DNA from: Acrocarpospora corrugata | Lineage (GTDB): Bacteria > Actinomycetota > Actinomycetes > Streptosporangiales > Streptosporangiaceae | DNA length: 64,000 nucleotides | Assembly (NCBI RefSeq): GCF_009687845.1 | Contig: NZ_BLAD01000041.1 | Location: 124,001-188,000, forward strand | Reading direction: 5' to 3' | Shown: piece by piece, positions 35,088 through 63,830 of the stretch | Layout: every line of letters starts with the position of its first letter | Numbering within the stretch: the first letter of the stretch is position 1 | The notes under the pieces: generated by a model | The model's input: the letters and a program-made list of their open reading frames with translations, nothing else | The model's database searches: none | What the model was told of the DNA's origin: nothing | Made by a program: the position numbers and the translations under genes

Positions 35088-35681
35088 ATGGCGACCCGGC
35101 AACGCAGCAATCCGCTCGCGCTCGCGGTGCTCGCCCTGCTCTACGAGCGGCCGATGCATCCGTACGAGATGGCGACAACCCTCAGGGAGCGTCGCAAAGA
35201 GGACAGCATCAAGCTCAACTACGGTTCGCTCTACTCGGTCGTGCAGTCGCTGGAGCGCCGGGGCCTGGTCACGGCCCAGGAGGTCCAGCGGGACGGACGC
35301 CGTCCGGAGCGCACTGTGTACGCGATCGCCGAGCCGGGCACGGTCGAGTTGCTCGACTGGCTGAGTGAGCTGGTCGCGGTGCCCACCCGGGAGTTCACCC
35401 AGTTCGAGGCCGCGCTGTCGCTGCTGGCCTGTCTGAAGCCAGATGAGGCGGTACGGCTGCTTGAGGAGCGCGTGTCCAGGCTTGAGCAGGAACTGGCCGC
35501 GGCCGAAGGGCTGCGGGGGCACTCGTCCATGAGCAAGTTGCCCCGGTTGTTGTACATCGAATGGGAGTACCGAATCGCGCTTCGCCGTACCGAACTGGAA
35601 TTCGTCTCGTCGCTGGTGCAGGAGATCCGTGAGGAGACGATCGAGGGACTGGCGATGTGGCGGGATTTCCACCAGCAGTGA
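35088..35681 (+). CDS. PadR-family transcriptional regulator
   Basis: A 197-residue PadR-s2-type regulator. The winged helix spans residues about 8-85 (LALAVLALLYERPMHPYEMA, LNYGSLYSVVQSLERRGLVT) and the C-terminal coiled coil follows (EERVSRLEQELAAAEGLRGH). It is preceded by AAGGAGGG and an inverted repeat, and followed 154 bases later by an ABC exporter pair, so it most likely represses that exporter until it binds a toxic ligand. Its stop codon lies inside the first copy of a 17-bp tandem repeat. Confidence 0.92.
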   Translation: MATRQRSNPLALAVLALLYERPMHPYEMATTLRERRKEDSIKLNYGSLYSVVQSLERRGLVTAQEVQRDGRRPERTVYAIAEPGTVELLDWLSELVAVPTREFTQFEAALSLLACLKPDEAVRLLEERVSRLEQELAAAEGLRGHSSMSKLPRLLYIEWEYRIALRRTELEFVSSLVQEIREETIEGLAMWRDFHQQ

Positions 35682-35717
35682 CGTTCCACCAGCAGTGACG
35701 TTCCACCAGCAGTGAAG
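35667..35717. repeat. Three tandem 17-bp repeats across the padR stop
   Basis: TTCCACCAGCAGTGACG occurs at 35667-35683 and 35684-35700, with a third copy differing in one base at 35701-35717. Copy one encodes the last residues FHQQ and the stop of padR. Because 17 is not a multiple of three, the extra copies place further TGA codons in other frames. Confidence 0.95.
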
Positions 35718-55992: not shown

Positions 55993-56748
55993 GTGCGGGT
56001 CGCGCTGTTCATCACCTGTGTCAACGACACCCTCTTCCCGGACACCGGCCGGGCGGTCGTCACGCTGCTGCGACGCCTGGGGGTGGACGTGGAGTTCCCG
56101 CAGGCGCAGACGTGCTGCGGGCAGATGCACGTCAACACGGGGTATCCGGCCGAGGGGGTACGGCTCGCGCGGCACTTCACCGAGGTGTTCGCGGAGTACG
56201 ACGCGGTGGTGACGCCGTCGGGGTCGTGCACGGCGATGATCCGCGAGCAGTATCCGAAACTGGCGGCGACCGCGCGGGTGCCGGCGAAGCAGACGGCCGG
56301 GCTGGGTACGGCGGTCGAGGAGATCGTGCCGAAGGTCTATGACCTGTCGGAGTTCCTGCTGGATGTGCTGGGGGTTACTGACGTGGGGGCCTATTTCCCG
56401 CATCGAGTGACTTATCATCCTACGTGTCATTCGCTGCGGGGGCTGCATTTGGGGGATCGGCCGACGCGGCTGCTTTCTGCGGTGCGGGGGCTGGAGTTGG
56501 TGGCGTTGCCGGGGGCGGAGGAGTGCTGCGGGTTCGGGGGGACTTTCGCGGTGAAGAATCGGGACATTTCTGCGGCGATGTGCGCGGACAAGGTGGGAAA
56601 TATCATGACGACGGGGGCTGAGGTGCTCTGTGCTGCGGATAATTCCTGTCTGATGCATATCGGGGGGACGTTGAGCCGGCAGAAGTCGGGGGTTCGGGTC
56701 ATGCATCTGGCGGAGATCCTGGCGGCCACGGAGGGTGGGGCTCGATGA
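55993..56748 (+). CDS. lutA: L-lactate dehydrogenase complex subunit LutA
   Basis: A 251-residue Fe-S oxidoreductase subunit with two CCG domains: CCGQMHVNTGYPAEG (from residue 37) and CCGFGGTFAVKN (from about 178), which bind a [4Fe-4S] or related cluster. LutABC oxidises L-lactate to pyruvate. The GTG at 55993 has GGGAG upstream. Its stop overlaps the lutB ATG (ATGA at 56745-56748). Confidence 0.94.
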   Translation: MRVALFITCVNDTLFPDTGRAVVTLLRRLGVDVEFPQAQTCCGQMHVNTGYPAEGVRLARHFTEVFAEYDAVVTPSGSCTAMIREQYPKLAATARVPAKQTAGLGTAVEEIVPKVYDLSEFLLDVLGVTDVGAYFPHRVTYHPTCHSLRGLHLGDRPTRLLSAVRGLELVALPGAEECCGFGGTFAVKNRDISAAMCADKVGNIMTTGAEVLCAADNSCLMHIGGTLSRQKSGVRVMHLAEILAATEGGAR

Positions 56749-58139
56749 GTCAGACGTTTGTGGGGATGCCGTCGTTTCCCAAGAATGCGGCGATAGCCGT
56801 ACAGGACTCGCAGTTGAGGTTCAATCTGCGGAAGGCTACCCGGACTATTCGCGGTAAGCGGGCCTCGGTCGTGGAGGAGTTGCCGGATTGGGCGGAATTG
56901 CGGCAGGCCGGGAAGGCGATCAAGGATCATACGCTGCGGAATCTTGAGCGGTATCTGGTGCAGATGGAGGCGGCGGTTTCGGCCGCCGGGGGGACTGTGC
57001 ACTGGGCGAAGGACGCCGAGGAGGCCAACCGCATCGTCGCCGGGCTGGTCAAGGCGACCGGTGAGACCGAGGTCGTCAAGGTCAAGTCGATGGCGACGCA
57101 GGAGATCGGGCTCAATGAGGCGCTCGCGGTGGAAGGTGTCACCGCTTATGAGACGGATCTCGCCGAGCTGATCGTGCAGCTTGGGGATGATTGGCCGTCG
57201 CATATTCTGGTTCCGGCGATTCATCGTAATCGAGCGGAGATCCGGGAGATTTTCCTGGCGAAGATGGCGGATGTTCCCGCTGATCTGACCGATGAGCCGA
57301 AGGCGCTGGCCGATGCGGCACGGCTGCATCTGCGGGAACGGTTTCTGCGGGCGAAAGTCGCGATTTCTGGCGCGAATTTCATGATTGCGGAGACGGGCAC
57401 GCTGGTTGTGCTGGAATCGGAGGGGAATGGCCGGATGTGCCTGACCCTGCCGGAGACCCTGATCAGTGTGGTGGGGATCGAGAAGTTGCTGCCGGCCTGG
57501 CGGGATCTGGAGGTTTTCCTGCAGTTGCTGCCGCGCAGTTCTACTGGTGAGCGGATGAATCCGTACACGTCGATGTGGACGGGTGCGGTCGAAGGGCAGG
57601 ATTTCCATCTGGTTCTGCTCGACAATGGACGAACCGATGTGCTGGCCGATGAAGTCGGGCGGCAGGCGTTGCGCTGTATTCGTTGTTCCGCGTGCCTGAA
57701 TGTCTGCCCGGTGTATGAACGGGCGGGCGGGCATGCGTACGGGTCTGTTTATCCCGGGCCGATCGGGGCGATCCTCACGCCGCAGCTGCGGGGCATGGAC
57801 ACCGCGCTGGACCGGTCGCTCCCGTTCGCGTCCTCGCTGTGCGGCGCGTGTTACGACGTGTGCCCGGTCGCGATCGACATCCCGAGCGTGCTCGTCGATC
57901 TCCGCGCGAAGGCCAGACATCCCCGCACCGAACGGATCGGCATGGCCGCCGCGGGATGGGTCTTCAACCGGTCTGTACGGCTTGCGCGCGCCCAGCGCTT
58001 CGGCGGACGAATGCGAAAACTGATCCCGAAACGCCTTCCGGGCCCTATGTCCGGCTGGACCGACACTCGCGATCTTCCCGACATTCCTCAGGAATCCTTC
58101 CGGGCATGGTGGGACCGGACCGAAGGGGGAGCCCGATGA
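56745..58139 (+). CDS. lutB: L-lactate dehydrogenase complex iron-sulfur subunit LutB
   Basis: A 464-residue LutB. The LUD-type N-terminal domain contains VVKVKSMATQEIGLNEALA and GANFMIAETGTLVVLESEGN; two ferredoxin-like [4Fe-4S] motifs follow at CIRCSACLNVCPVYE (about 309) and CGACYDVCPVAID (about 365). It transfers electrons in L-lactate oxidation with LutA and LutC. Its 3' end carries the first copy of a 44-bp tandem repeat, and its stop overlaps the ATG of a 15-codon mini-ORF. Confidence 0.95.
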   Translation: MSQTFVGMPSFPKNAAIAVQDSQLRFNLRKATRTIRGKRASVVEELPDWAELRQAGKAIKDHTLRNLERYLVQMEAAVSAAGGTVHWAKDAEEANRIVAGLVKATGETEVVKVKSMATQEIGLNEALAVEGVTAYETDLAELIVQLGDDWPSHILVPAIHRNRAEIREIFLAKMADVPADLTDEPKALADAARLHLRERFLRAKVAISGANFMIAETGTLVVLESEGNGRMCLTLPETLISVVGIEKLLPAWRDLEVFLQLLPRSSTGERMNPYTSMWTGAVEGQDFHLVLLDNGRTDVLADEVGRQALRCIRCSACLNVCPVYERAGGHAYGSVYPGPIGAILTPQLRGMDTALDRSLPFASSLCGACYDVCPVAIDIPSVLVDLRAKARHPRTERIGMAAAGWVFNRSVRLARAQRFGGRMRKLIPKRLPGPMSGWTDTRDLPDIPQESFRAWWDRTEGGAR

Positions 58140-58183
58140 GCTTCCGTGCTTGGTCGGACCGGATCGAAAGGGGAGCCCGATGA
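58095..58183. repeat. 44-bp tandem duplication at the lutB-lutC junction
   Basis: 58095-58139 and 58139-58183 match over about 36 of 45 bases, including GGAGCCCGATGA at both ends. Each copy contains a ribosome-binding site and an ATGA. Because the period is not a multiple of three, the second copy forms a separate small reading frame. Confidence 0.9.
58136..58183 (+). CDS. 15-codon mini-cistron from duplicated lutB tail
   Basis: ATG at 58136, overlapping the lutB stop (ATGA), gives MSFRAWSDRIERGAR and a TGA that overlaps the lutC ATG (58180-58183, ATGA). The peptide mirrors the LutB C-terminus SFRAWWDRTEGGAR because the DNA is a tandem copy. It has its own AGGGGGAG, which in turn leaves AAGGGGAG for lutC. 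It probably serves translational coupling; whether the peptide has a role is unknown. Confidence 0.6.
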   Translation: MSFRAWSDRIERGAR

Positions 58184-58765: not shown

Positions 58766-59866
58766 ATGCCGTACGGTATGGGCGTGTTCGACGAACATCT
58801 CCCGATCCAAACCGAACGCCTACTCCTGCGGCATTTCAGCCCGGACGACGCGGCCCGCGTACGGGCGATCGTCCGGGAGGGCGCCCAGTCGACCGCCCTC
58901 CCGCCCGGCGCTCCCGGCTACGTGGGAGGAATCGCCCAATGGCTCTCCCATGGCGTACACGAACTGCGCAAATCCGGTCACGGCCTGCACCTCGCCATCG
59001 AAGCCGCAGGCGACATCATCGGCGCGATCAGCCTGTTCAAAACCCACTGGGGGACCGGCGTCACCGAAGTCGGCTACGGCATCCACCCCGACCACCGCGG
59101 ACGCGGCTACGCCCCCGAAGCCGTACGCGGACTGGCCGACTGGGCGCTCGGGCCCGCGCGGCTGCGCCGGATCGAACTGCGCGCCACGATCGAGAACTCG
59201 GCGTCCATCCGAGTCGCGGAGAAAGCCGGATTCAGCCGGGAAGGCGTGCTCCGCGGCGCCGGATTCGAGGACGACGGCCCGCACGACGTCGTCGTCTTCG
59301 GCCTGCTCCGCGGCGAGACCGGCCCCGCCTTCGGCGGACGCCTGGACACCCCCCGCCTCATCCTGCGGCCGTTCCGCAAACACGACGCCTTCGACCTGCT
59401 CGCGGCCGTCAAGGACGACGCCGAGATGATCCGCTGGATGCCCTGGGCGCCCGGCTACACACTGGAACGAGCCATCGACTGGTGCACCAGGCTGGCGCAC
59501 TCCGACCGCGTCAACGGCCTGACCTTCGCCCTCGAACCCCGCGACGGCGGCCGGCTCGGCGGCGCCATCGGCGTGCACCGCTCCGACCTGGAGCGCAGCG
59601 ACGTCGAGATCGGCTACTGGGTCTCGCCGTGGGCCCGCCGCCAGGGCTACGCCGTCGAAGCCGCCAGAACCGTGGCCAGCTGGCTGCTCGCCCAGGGCTA
59701 CACGCGGGTGCAACTGACGATCGCGGTCGGCAATGTGGGCAGCCGCGCGGTCGCGCGCCGGGCCGGATTCACCGAAGAAGGCATCCTCCGCCAAGGGCTC
59801 CCGATCCCCGGCGGGCGCGCCGATGCCGTTCTTTACAGCATCCTGCGGGACGAACTCAGACCTTAA
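58766..59866 (+). CDS. Tandem GNAT acetyltransferase
   Basis: A protein of about 366 residues with two GNAT domains of the RimJ/RimL type: domain 1 (about 12-175) has EVGYGIHPDHRGRGYAPEAV and ASIRVAEKAGFSREG, domain 2 (about 190-360) has EIGYWVSPWARRQGYAVEAA and GSRAVARRAGFTEEG. Both keep the acetyl-CoA pyrophosphate loop (R/Q-x-x-G-x-G/A pattern), so both may be active. The first in-frame ATG is at 58766; another at 58778 is also possible. It follows lutC by five bases and might be cotranscribed. Substrate unknown. Confidence 0.88.
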   Translation: MPYGMGVFDEHLPIQTERLLLRHFSPDDAARVRAIVREGAQSTALPPGAPGYVGGIAQWLSHGVHELRKSGHGLHLAIEAAGDIIGAISLFKTHWGTGVTEVGYGIHPDHRGRGYAPEAVRGLADWALGPARLRRIELRATIENSASIRVAEKAGFSREGVLRGAGFEDDGPHDVVVFGLLRGETGPAFGGRLDTPRLILRPFRKHDAFDLLAAVKDDAEMIRWMPWAPGYTLERAIDWCTRLAHSDRVNGLTFALEPRDGGRLGGAIGVHRSDLERSDVEIGYWVSPWARRQGYAVEAARTVASWLLAQGYTRVQLTIAVGNVGSRAVARRAGFTEEGILRQGLPIPGGRADAVLYSILRDELRP

Positions 59867-59945
59867 AACACAGGTCAAGGATCCCCCATGGGCCAGTACC
59901 GTCCGCTATTGTCACGATCCGGACAAGGCATGGGAGATCGGTGAG

Positions 59946-60863
59946 ATGAAACCGCCGTTGGTGCTCATCGGACACGGCACCCACGATGACACGGGCGTCG
60001 CTGAATTCGGCCGCTTCGTACACCGGCTTCGATGCCGGCTGGACGGCGTGGTCGCCGATGTGTCCGGCGGCTTCATCACGAAGGCCCGGCCGCCGCTCAG
60101 TGACTCGATCACGTCCCTGGTGGCGCGCGGCCACCACCACCTGATCGTGCTGCCCCTCAGCCTCACCAACGACCGCCGCGCCCTGGGCGACATTCCCGGC
60201 ACGCTCGCGTTGGAGCAGGAACGCCACCCCACGCTCGACTACGACCTGGCGCGCTCGCTCGGCCCCGACCCGCGAATCCTCGAACTCCTCGCCGAACGCC
60301 TCGCGGACGCGCAGGCCGACATGCCCCATCTGCTCCGGACCGAGCCCTTCCGGCTCACCGACGAGGAGCCCGAGCGCATCACTCCCGCTGAGACCGCGAT
60401 CGTCCTGGTCGGGCATGGATCGACCGACGTGTCCGCCAACGCGGAGGTGCATCGGGTCTCCCGGCTGTTCTGGGAAACCCACGCCGCCGACTACCTGACC
60501 GTGGAGACCGCCTACGTCTCGCTCGCCCGGCCCGGCGTGCCCGGCGGGCTGGAACGCTGCCGCCGCCTCGGCGCGAAGCGGGTGATCGTGCTGCCGTACC
60601 TGCTGTTCGCCGGGGGCGTGCTTGAGCGCATCTGGGCTCAGGCGCTGGCGTACGGGGCCAACCACGAGGGCATCGACATCCGCTGCGCCGAGGTCATCGG
60701 CGACTGCGAGGGCCTGGCCGACGTGGTCATCGACCGCTACGAGGAAGCCCTGGCCGACGCCGCCGAATGGAACGTCCGCCAACGCGTACAACAGGCCCTG
60801 GCAGCCCAGCGCTTCCCCCGCGCCCGGGGGACAACTTTCGCGGAGGAACCCACACCGGTCTGA
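59946..60863 (+). CDS. cbiX: Sirohydrochlorin cobaltochelatase-like protein (CbiX)
   Basis: A 305-residue chelatase with two similar halves, each with a metal-binding HG motif: LVLIGHGTHDD near the start and IVLVGHGSTDVSANAEVHRV in the second half, followed by VIVLPYLLFAGGVLERI. This is the long CbiX form, which inserts cobalt into sirohydrochlorin in early anaerobic-type cobalamin synthesis (or iron for sirohaem). The ATG at 59946 has GGGAG...GGTGAG upstream. cobC and cobT follow after a 431-base gap. Confidence 0.9.
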   Translation: MKPPLVLIGHGTHDDTGVAEFGRFVHRLRCRLDGVVADVSGGFITKARPPLSDSITSLVARGHHHLIVLPLSLTNDRRALGDIPGTLALEQERHPTLDYDLARSLGPDPRILELLAERLADAQADMPHLLRTEPFRLTDEEPERITPAETAIVLVGHGSTDVSANAEVHRVSRLFWETHAADYLTVETAYVSLARPGVPGGLERCRRLGAKRVIVLPYLLFAGGVLERIWAQALAYGANHEGIDIRCAEVIGDCEGLADVVIDRYEEALADAAEWNVRQRVQQALAAQRFPRARGTTFAEEPTPV

Positions 60864-61294: not shown

Positions 61295-62380
61295 ATGTCG
61301 CTGATCGTGTCTGAATGGGTGGATCTGCGGCATCACGGGGATCGGGATGTTGCGCCGGGGTTGGTGGATCTCGCGGTGAATGTGCGGCAGGGGGCGCCGC
61401 CCGGGTGGCTCGGTGATGTGGTTCGGGAGGCCGTGGGTGATCTTTCGGCTTATCCGGATGGGGATCGGGCCCGGGCGGCGGTGGCTGGGCGGCATGGGCG
61501 CGATGCAGACGAAGTGTTGCTGACCGCTGGGGCGGCGGAGGCGTTTGTACTGCTTGCGCGGGTGTTGCGGCCTCGGCGGGCGGTGGTGGTGCATCCGCAG
61601 TTCACTGAGCCGGAGGCTGCGCTGTTGGCGGCGGGGCATCGGGTGGAGCGGGTGGTTCTGTCCGGGGCGTTCACGCTGGATCCTGGCCTGGTGCCGGAGG
61701 ACGCGGATCTGGTCATGGTGGGCAATCCGACAAATCCCACTTCGGTGTTGCACTCGGGGGAGAGTCTGCGGAGTCTTGTCCGGCCTGGGCGGACGTTGGT
61801 GGTGGATGAGGCGTTCGCGGATTGCGTACCGGGGGAGCCTGAGTCGCTCGCGTCGCTGTCGCTGCCAGGGCTGGTCGTGATTCGTAGTCTGACCAAGACG
61901 TGGGGGCTGGCGGGGCTGCGGGTCGGGTACGTGCTCGCGGATGCGCCGACGATCGCGCGACTGGCGGAGGCGCAGCCGCTTTGGGCGGTTTCTACGCCGG
62001 CGTTGGCTGCGGCGGAGGCGTGCATGAGCTCGCGAGCTCATGCGGAGACCGAAACATGGGCACGGCAAATGGCCGTCGAACGTGAGTACCTCGTGGCGGG
62101 GCTGCGTGCACTGGGCGCTCACGTCGTTCCCGACCCACAGGCGTCGTTCGTGTGCGTGCGACTTCCGGCAGGCCGCGACAGCTCCGCCGGTTCGGTCGGG
62201 AGCGAGAGGCCCTTGCATGTGCGGTTGGCTTTGCGGGCGAAAGGGTTCGCTGTTCGTCGGGGGGACACGTTTCCGGGGCTTGGGGAGGACTGGATTCGCG
62301 TGGCTGTAAGGGATCCGGGGACCTCGGACGCGTTTCTTGAGGCGTTGGCGGCCACAATGAAGACATCCCCGACGCGTTGA
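61295..62380 (+). CDS. cobC: PLP-dependent CobC-like (threonine-phosphate decarboxylase-type) enzyme
   Basis: A 361-residue fold-type I aminotransferase relative. The PLP lysine lies in VIRSLTKTWGLAGLRVGY, the VVDEAFADC loop carries the Asp that contacts the pyridine, and MVGNPTNPTSVLH and the C-terminal RVAVRDP arginine match histidinol-phosphate aminotransferase/CobD-type proteins. Placed directly before cobT it most likely makes the aminopropanol-phosphate arm of cobalamin (threonine-phosphate decarboxylase), although histidinol-phosphate-type transamination cannot be excluded by sequence alone. The stop is 11 bases before cobT. Confidence 0.82.
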   Translation: MSLIVSEWVDLRHHGDRDVAPGLVDLAVNVRQGAPPGWLGDVVREAVGDLSAYPDGDRARAAVAGRHGRDADEVLLTAGAAEAFVLLARVLRPRRAVVVHPQFTEPEAALLAAGHRVERVVLSGAFTLDPGLVPEDADLVMVGNPTNPTSVLHSGESLRSLVRPGRTLVVDEAFADCVPGEPESLASLSLPGLVVIRSLTKTWGLAGLRVGYVLADAPTIARLAEAQPLWAVSTPALAAAEACMSSRAHAETETWARQMAVEREYLVAGLRALGAHVVPDPQASFVCVRLPAGRDSSAGSVGSERPLHVRLALRAKGFAVRRGDTFPGLGEDWIRVAVRDPGTSDAFLEALAATMKTSPTR

Positions 62381-62390
62381 GGAGTGTCCT

Positions 62391-63830
62391 GTGCCTAGCC
62401 GTACCCGACTGAACGAGACTATTGCGGCGATCAGTTCACTGGACTTGGCGGCGATGGCTGAGGCCAGGGCGCACCAGGACCGGCTCACCAAACCGCGCGG
62501 GTCGCTGGGCGCGCTGGAGGACGTAGCCGTCCGGCTTGCCGGAATCGCTGCGGTTTCGCCACCCCCGCTCCCGGAACCGGCAGCGCTGGCGATCTTCGCC
62601 GCCGACCATGGCGTACACGCCCAAGGTGTCAGCCCATGGCCCCAGGAGGTCACCACCCAGATGGTGGCCAACTTCCTCGCGGGTGGCGCCGTCGCGAACG
62701 CCTTCGCCGCCCAGGCGGGCATCACGGTCACCGTCGTCGACGTCGGCGTCGCCACCGACCTGCCCCCCGCCCCCAACCTCCGCGTCCACAAGGCTGGATA
62801 CGGCACCGCCGACCTCTCCCAGGGCCCCGCCATGACAGAGGCCCAAGCCCTCACCGCCCTCTGCGCAGGCATCGAAACCGCCACCACCTTGATCGCCGAC
62901 GGCGCCCGCTGCCTCATCACCGGCGACATGGGCATCGCCAACACCACCGCCTCAGCCGCCCTGATCTGCGCCTTCACCGGCAGCGACCCCACCGACGCAA
63001 CCGGCAGAGGAACCGGCATCGACGACACCACCCTCAACCACAAGATCGCCATAATCCGCCAGGCCCTGACCAAGAACGCAATCCCCGGCGCCGGACATGC
63101 ATCGCAGCCCCCGACCAAGAACGAGATTTCTGACGCTGGAGGTACGTCCCAGGCCCTAGCCACGAATGCAGGCCCCGGCATCGGTGATTCGTCGCAGGCC
63201 CTGACCGAGGGTGCGGTCACCGGCGCTGGAGGTACATCCCGGGCCCTGGCCACGAATGCAGGCCCCGGCGCTGGAGATCCGTCCCAGGCACTGGCGATGA
63301 ACGCAGTCTCCGGCATTGGAGATTCGTCGCAAGCACTGGCCGAGGCTGCGGTTTCTGGTGCTGGAGATTCGTTCCAGGCCCTAGCCGCGAATGAAGTCCC
63401 CAACGTTGGGGATTCGTCGCAGGCGCTGGCTGAGAATGCGATTCCCGGCGCTGGAGATCTGTCCCAGGCTCTGCGGATATTGGCGGCTGTTGGTGGGTTC
63501 GAGCATGCGGCGATTGCTGGGTTTGTGCTGGGGGCTGCTGCGCAGCGCGTTCCCGTTGTTCTGGATGGGGTGATCGCTGGTGCGGCGGCGCTGGTTGCGG
63601 CGGGGCTCGCGCCGGAGGCGATCGGGTATTGCGTCGCCGGGCATCGGTCGGCTGAGCCGGGGCATGCCATCGCGCTGGAGTTCCTGGGCCTGCGCCCGCT
63701 TGTTGACCTTGAGCTCAGGCTGGGTGAGGGTTCAGGTGGCCTGCTCGCCCAACCGCTGATCGTCGCCGCCGCCCGGGTCATGCATGATGTCGCCACCTTC
63801 GACTCCGCTGGGGTTTCCGACAAAACGTGA
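62391..63830 (+). CDS. cobT: Nicotinate-nucleotide--dimethylbenzimidazole phosphoribosyltransferase with repeat insertion
   Basis: A 479-residue CobT; the family is usually about 350. The core is intact: RLTKPRGSLGALEDVAVRLA, LAIFAADHGVHAQGV, CLITGDMGIANTTASAAL, GRGTGID and the C-terminal ILAAVGGFEHAAIAGFVLGA and YCVAGHRSAEPGHAIALEFL with the catalytic Glu. Between GIDDTTLNHKIAIIRQ and ALRILAAVGG lie nine 15-residue repeats (about residues 225-359), where normal CobT has one short loop. It activates dimethylbenzimidazole for the lower ligand of cobalamin. GTG start with GAGGAG upstream; cobC precedes it by 10 bases. Confidence 0.92.
   Translation: MPSRTRLNETIAAISSLDLAAMAEARAHQDRLTKPRGSLGALEDVAVRLAGIAAVSPPPLPEPAALAIFAADHGVHAQGVSPWPQEVTTQMVANFLAGGAVANAFAAQAGITVTVVDVGVATDLPPAPNLRVHKAGYGTADLSQGPAMTEAQALTALCAGIETATTLIADGARCLITGDMGIANTTASAALICAFTGSDPTDATGRGTGIDDTTLNHKIAIIRQALTKNAIPGAGHASQPPTKNEISDAGGTSQALATNAGPGIGDSSQALTEGAVTGAGGTSRALATNAGPGAGDPSQALAMNAVSGIGDSSQALAEAAVSGAGDSFQALAANEVPNVGDSSQALAENAIPGAGDLSQALRILAAVGGFEHAAIAGFVLGAAAQRVPVVLDGVIAGAAALVAAGLAPEAIGYCVAGHRSAEPGHAIALEFLGLRPLVDLELRLGEGSGGLLAQPLIVAAARVMHDVATFDSAGVSDKT
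63063..63467. repeat. Nine 45-bp in-frame repeats inside cobT
   Basis: Nine tandem 45-bp units encode the 15-residue pattern ALxxNAxxGxGDSSQ, with variants such as ALTKNAIPGAGHASQ, ALATNAGPGIGDSSQ, ALAEAAVSGAGDSFQ and ALAENAIPGAGDLSQ. Units 3 and 5 are most alike, suggesting a 90-bp higher-order duplication. Every unit is exactly 45 bp, so the frame is preserved. Confidence 0.95.

Follow-up and report, generated by a model that had tools for sequence, protein, structure and literature searches.

A nine-unit in-frame tandem array in a variable loop of CobT from Acrocarpospora corrugata

The closest described counterparts of the locus reported here are the CobT proteins (nicotinate-nucleotide--dimethylbenzimidazole phosphoribosyltransferases) of S. 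enterica and T. thermophilus. Glu317 is the catalytic base of the S. enterica enzyme (PMC9561151). Known CobT structures contain about 1 to 8 residues between two helices (seven in S. enterica CobT, between aligned positions 224 and 232) where the Acrocarpospora corrugata protein, with the same helix-loop-helix arrangement at that point, has about 130. Intragenic tandem repeats of disordered regions (PMC7230257) resemble the array in their in-frame duplication and their disorder-promoting residues. Whereas the repeats in that census often lie at sequence flanks, the Acrocarpospora array lies inside a compact metabolic enzyme. In the open-access literature, we found no account of a repeat-bearing CobT.

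The window, the whole 64,000-nucleotide stretch of A. corrugata DNA that was analyzed, contains as its last complete gene a cobT at 62391 to 63830 (plus strand) that encodes 479 amino acids, including the array; the genome has no other cobT match. The protein scores 396 bits against the TIGR03160 equivalog model (cut-off, 319; E value, 1.2e-118) and 400 bits against PF02277, and the best Foldseek matches of its predicted model are the CobT structures 1wx1, 1j33, and 4kqf, with TM scores by target of up to 0.94. The whole core aligns with the S. enterica and T. thermophilus enzymes. By alignment to 1wx1 and 4kqj, the N-terminal core spans residues 1 to 224 (62391 to 63062, plus strand) and ends in HKIAIIRQ, its last aligned helix being 212 to 228, and the C-terminal core (63468 to 63827, plus strand) begins with ALRILAAVGGFEHAA. 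In a gap-free phmmer alignment of residues 361 to 470 to residues 232 to 341 of 4kqj, the equivalent of Glu317 is Glu446 (codon at 63726 to 63728, plus strand), which lies downstream of the array and is invariant across 50 aligned CobTs. Glu174 is replaced by Asp179 in the A. corrugata protein, and T. thermophilus also has Asp. The array is located between helices 212 to 228 and 357 to 367 of the model and lies between residues 224 and 360. The profile matches, the fold match, and the retained Glu446 agree with the initial annotation, which had placed the array between the two halves of an otherwise normal CobT, and the array-bearing protein is probably a working enzyme. Upstream, at 61295 to 62380 (plus strand), is a class I/II aminotransferase gene (PF00155) of CobC/CobD-like type, whose position suggests a cobalamin role.

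Unit alignment, consensus, and TRF delimit an array of nine contiguous, head-to-tail 45-bp units (15 residues each) at 63063 to 63467 (plus strand), and the unit alignment, with zero indels and a single open frame, confirmed the coordinates, the count of nine, and the in-frame 45-bp period first reported. The unit length is divisible by three, and there are no stops within the array. The unit consensus is ALAKNAVPGAGDSSQ, with ALxxN at its start, and the best-kept residues are Leu2, Gly11, Ser14, and Gln15; Ala, Gly, Ser, Pro, and Thr together make up 62% of the array. Unit 1 (ALTKNAIPGAGHASQ; 63063 to 63107, plus strand) overlaps the end of the native helix, because its first five residues, ALTKN, are common to the congeners, with IIRQ/VIRQ-ALTKN at the matching site in A. 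macrocephala and G004. Unit 9 (ALAENAIPGAGDLSQ; 63423 to 63467, plus strand) is followed by the native ALRILAAVGG. TRF gave a period of 45 with a score of 280 and 66% matches and a period of 135 with a score of 351, and the self-match of the array at offset 135 was 0.722, versus a maximum of 0.384 across 500 shuffles. The closest pair is units 3 and 5, with 38 of 45 bases matching. When the unit order was permuted, no 90- or 135-bp higher-order structure was supported (lag 2, P = 0.105; lag 3, P = 0.12; lag 5, P = 0.14). The 90-bp step proposed earlier is not supported, nor is the present-day strain-to-strain copy variation predicted from it, the longest exact internal repeat of the array being 21 bp. 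The genome is a draft of 170 contigs, which is what might be said for an array created during assembly, but the frame and core are intact, and because the units differ at 16 to 47% of bases in pairwise comparisons (about 31% overall) and share no exact repeats above 21 bp, ordinary short reads place every unit; we regard an artefact as extremely improbable.

The array most plausibly originated from the loop itself. With eight units removed, the loop is 38 residues long between fixed anchors, and the median loop is 39 residues among those 73 of the 80 nearest named relatives whose loop could be measured and 41 among all 126 loops, a set enriched for long loops because its regions were chosen by us. 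Native short loops carry A, L, and N at unit positions 1, 2, and 5 in 77, 89, and 63 of 91 cases, respectively, and short-loop near relatives read QALRTNAIPEAGAV (L018) and RALRVNGIPEAGAV (L033) there. The earlier proposal that one unit is ancestral and eight were gained thus fits both the family norm in length and the AL--N match. Since a one-unit loop has normal length and the unit is similar to the native loop together with the end of the helix before it, the array would be the product of repeated duplication of the native loop. Nearly identical nine-base sequences, CAGGCCCTG and CAGGCTCTG, with the form CAGGC(C/T)CTG, lie at the two ends of the array. An ancestor with a helix ending in IIRQALTKN, a short loop, and a next helix beginning with ALRIL could have duplicated the 45-bp piece between these similar short sequences; unequal exchange or slippage would later have raised the number to nine, and the copies would then have diverged to their present distances. 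This duplication mechanism would give a working enzyme a flexible extension rich in Ala, Gly, Ser, and Pro. Selection would act mainly on the open frame, with Glu446 downstream, and on a soluble composition, while copy number and exact sequence would carry little weight. We assign a probability of about 0.72 to this reading, in which the array arose by tandem expansion of a surface loop native to CobT and is tolerated and probably disordered, at a site where in-frame duplications recur and where the frame is kept by the downstream Glu446.

The nine-unit array was not found in four congeners or among 299 Streptosporangiaceae genomes, and long loops at the same site recur in the family. CobT loops ranged from 29 to 158 residues (n = 126), that of A. 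corrugata being the longest, and 11 of the 73 nearest named relatives had loops of at least 50 residues. Within Acrocarpospora, four of five genomes have loops of 109 to 158 residues, and the fifth, G001, has one of 35 residues. The long loops of three of the four congeners each differ from that of A. corrugata, as does the loop length in all four; homology of the array to the congeners' loops was rejected, with aligned identity of 20 to 24% and no repeat match. Arrays of other periods occupy the CobT loop in at least six other species and are unrelated and independent: A. macrocephala has its own tandem array with a 10-amino-acid period (TRF, 30 bp × 3.2), and further periods are 5 amino acids in L036 (15 bp × 4.6) and in Nonomuraea maritima (L086), 11 in Streptosporangium minutum (L051), 19 in L134 (57 bp × 2.9), and 28 in L133. 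The long loops of Nonomuraea, Streptosporangium, and A. macrocephala share with that of A. corrugata the insertion point and an Ala/Gly/Ser/Pro-rich composition, and several contain in-frame arrays; in contrast, the long loops of other Streptosporangiaceae are shorter, have units of unrelated length and sequence, and nowhere contain nine regular units. In the CobT tree, long and short loops are interspersed. The initial annotation had held that known CobTs have a single short loop. In other families of Actinomycetes the loop is short, only one of 83 full-length CobTs exceeding the short-loop query (by 19 residues), but the statement fails for the Streptosporangiaceae, where long and independently repeated loops recur. 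In another genome of the family, close to the cobT of L134, an 18-bp unit is repeated in 11 copies with 92% matches (L134, 1372 to 1572).

Comparisons of sister species point to a loop that changes rapidly beside a fixed core. Seven pairs of sister species were compared in which one or both members have a long loop; their cores were free of indels, and each pair had 1 to 4 in the loop. Loop length differed in every long-loop pair tested, and identity was 53 to 83% in the loop versus 91 to 100% in the core. Both pS and pN were raised in the loop, with dN/dS of 0.29 to 1.03 there versus 0 to 0.29 in the core. In the pairs L010/L011, L067/L068, L022/L023, and L051/L131, the long loops had diverged at silent sites roughly three- to sixfold more than the flanking core, which suggests a higher rate of mutation or exchange in the loop or constrained codon choice in the core. 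For the nine units compared with one another, dN/dS was 0.50 (bootstrap, 0.30 to 0.83), so constraint on the units appears to be relaxed but not absent. The unit may be under some constraint, given a ratio below 1 and well-kept Gly11, Leu2, Ser14, and Gln15, and the same pattern could be produced by gene conversion or recent copying. The absence of stops was rejected as proof of selection, since 29% of neutral simulation runs also had none; the open frame is sufficiently explained by the position of Glu446, because loss of frame upstream of it would end the enzyme. We infer that the array is nearly neutral, and its role is most likely slight or nil. The expansion most likely has little effect on the enzyme.

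AlphaFold2 predicts a confident core and an array of low confidence. With 50 sequences aligned, pLDDT was mostly above 90 in the core and mostly 31 to 39 in the array, although low pLDDT in a repeat that lacks aligned homologues is a weak sign of disorder. The array is most likely disordered. Folding of the units, for example into a beta-solenoid whose coils have 15 residues each, would be compatible with the single-sequence AlphaFold2 model of the array alone, which contains nine strands spaced by about 15 residues (best pLDDT, 66; pTM, 0.59), but the five such models disagree, with pLDDT falling from 66 to 36, and the full-length model built with homologues has no strands in the array and pLDDT mostly below 40 there. 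The array model had no PDB fold match at an E value below 0.1, the array sequence had no Pfam or PDB match, and spurious beta-solenoids are a known outcome of AlphaFold2 predictions on repeats (PMC11795689). Such a fold is very improbable, and the beta-type extension put forward in the initial annotation is not supported, since strands appear only in the single-sequence prediction, which is prone to this artefact.

Selection might instead act on the length of the loop and not on its sequence, as in a spacer or tether that places CobT with other cobalamin-assembly enzymes. The 109- to 158-residue loops of four of the five Acrocarpospora genomes have a similar soluble, low-complexity composition, the moderate purifying signal among the units agrees with a use for the extension, and, with long loops in three of four congeners, length itself could be useful in the genus. 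Against this, the loop of G001 has only 35 residues, loop length was conserved in none of the tested sister pairs that include a long loop, there is no conserved motif, and no partner is known. We consider a selected spacer unlikely, and the tethering of cobalamin-assembly partners suggested earlier is not supported. More doubtful still is the broader idea that CobT of the Streptosporangiaceae carries a fast-changing, length-selected disordered arm that gathers the cobalamin-assembly enzymes and whose length is tuned by independent tandem expansions.

Selection on the DNA and not on the protein, as a dispersed repeat or as a regulatory or RNA element, would account for the perfectly kept period and for the shift in silent-site composition in the array part of the gene. 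A second array is nevertheless absent from the genome and from 298 other genomes of the family, Rfam has no match at the array, and the units change freely at silent sites, which makes this explanation highly improbable. A dispersed or mobile repeat was rejected as the array is single copy in the genome, the best other match being 76% over 55 bp with no array, and an RNA family was likewise rejected by the Rfam search. A long minus-strand ORF through the array is ordinary for DNA of high G+C content. Along cobT (62391 to 63827), C occupies 65% of third codon positions in the N-terminal part, 32% in the array, and 27% in the C-terminal part, where G accounts for 44% and T for 26%. The shift is smaller or hardly present in the cobT genes of the congeners and may reflect recombination or relaxed codon selection.

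The proposed expansion of CobT's own loop would involve an ordinary mechanism; the nine-unit loop is the longest case found, and the interest lies in the pattern across the family. Across the Streptosporangiaceae, in-frame tandem expansion has recurred in a single loop of a conserved metabolic enzyme, beside a core free of indels, and the natural series of loops from 29 to 158 residues could serve to measure the extent to which disorder inserted into an enzyme is tolerated or put to use.

Other short repeats occur in the window. A 33-bp unit is present twice at 60692 to 60759, near the 3' end of a CbiX-like ORF (59733 to 60863); this period is also divisible by three, and the gene is of cobalamin/siroheme type. 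At 35667 to 35715, nearly three identical 17-bp copies (TTCCACCAGCAGTGACG), each with a TGA, lie at the 3' end of the ORF at 35088 to 35681 and look like a recent duplication. A 44-bp tandem duplication of two copies at 58096 to 58183 spans the stop codon, ribosome-binding site, and start codon where the ORF at 56745 to 58139 meets the ORF that starts with ATG at 58180, and creates a 15-codon ORF between them.
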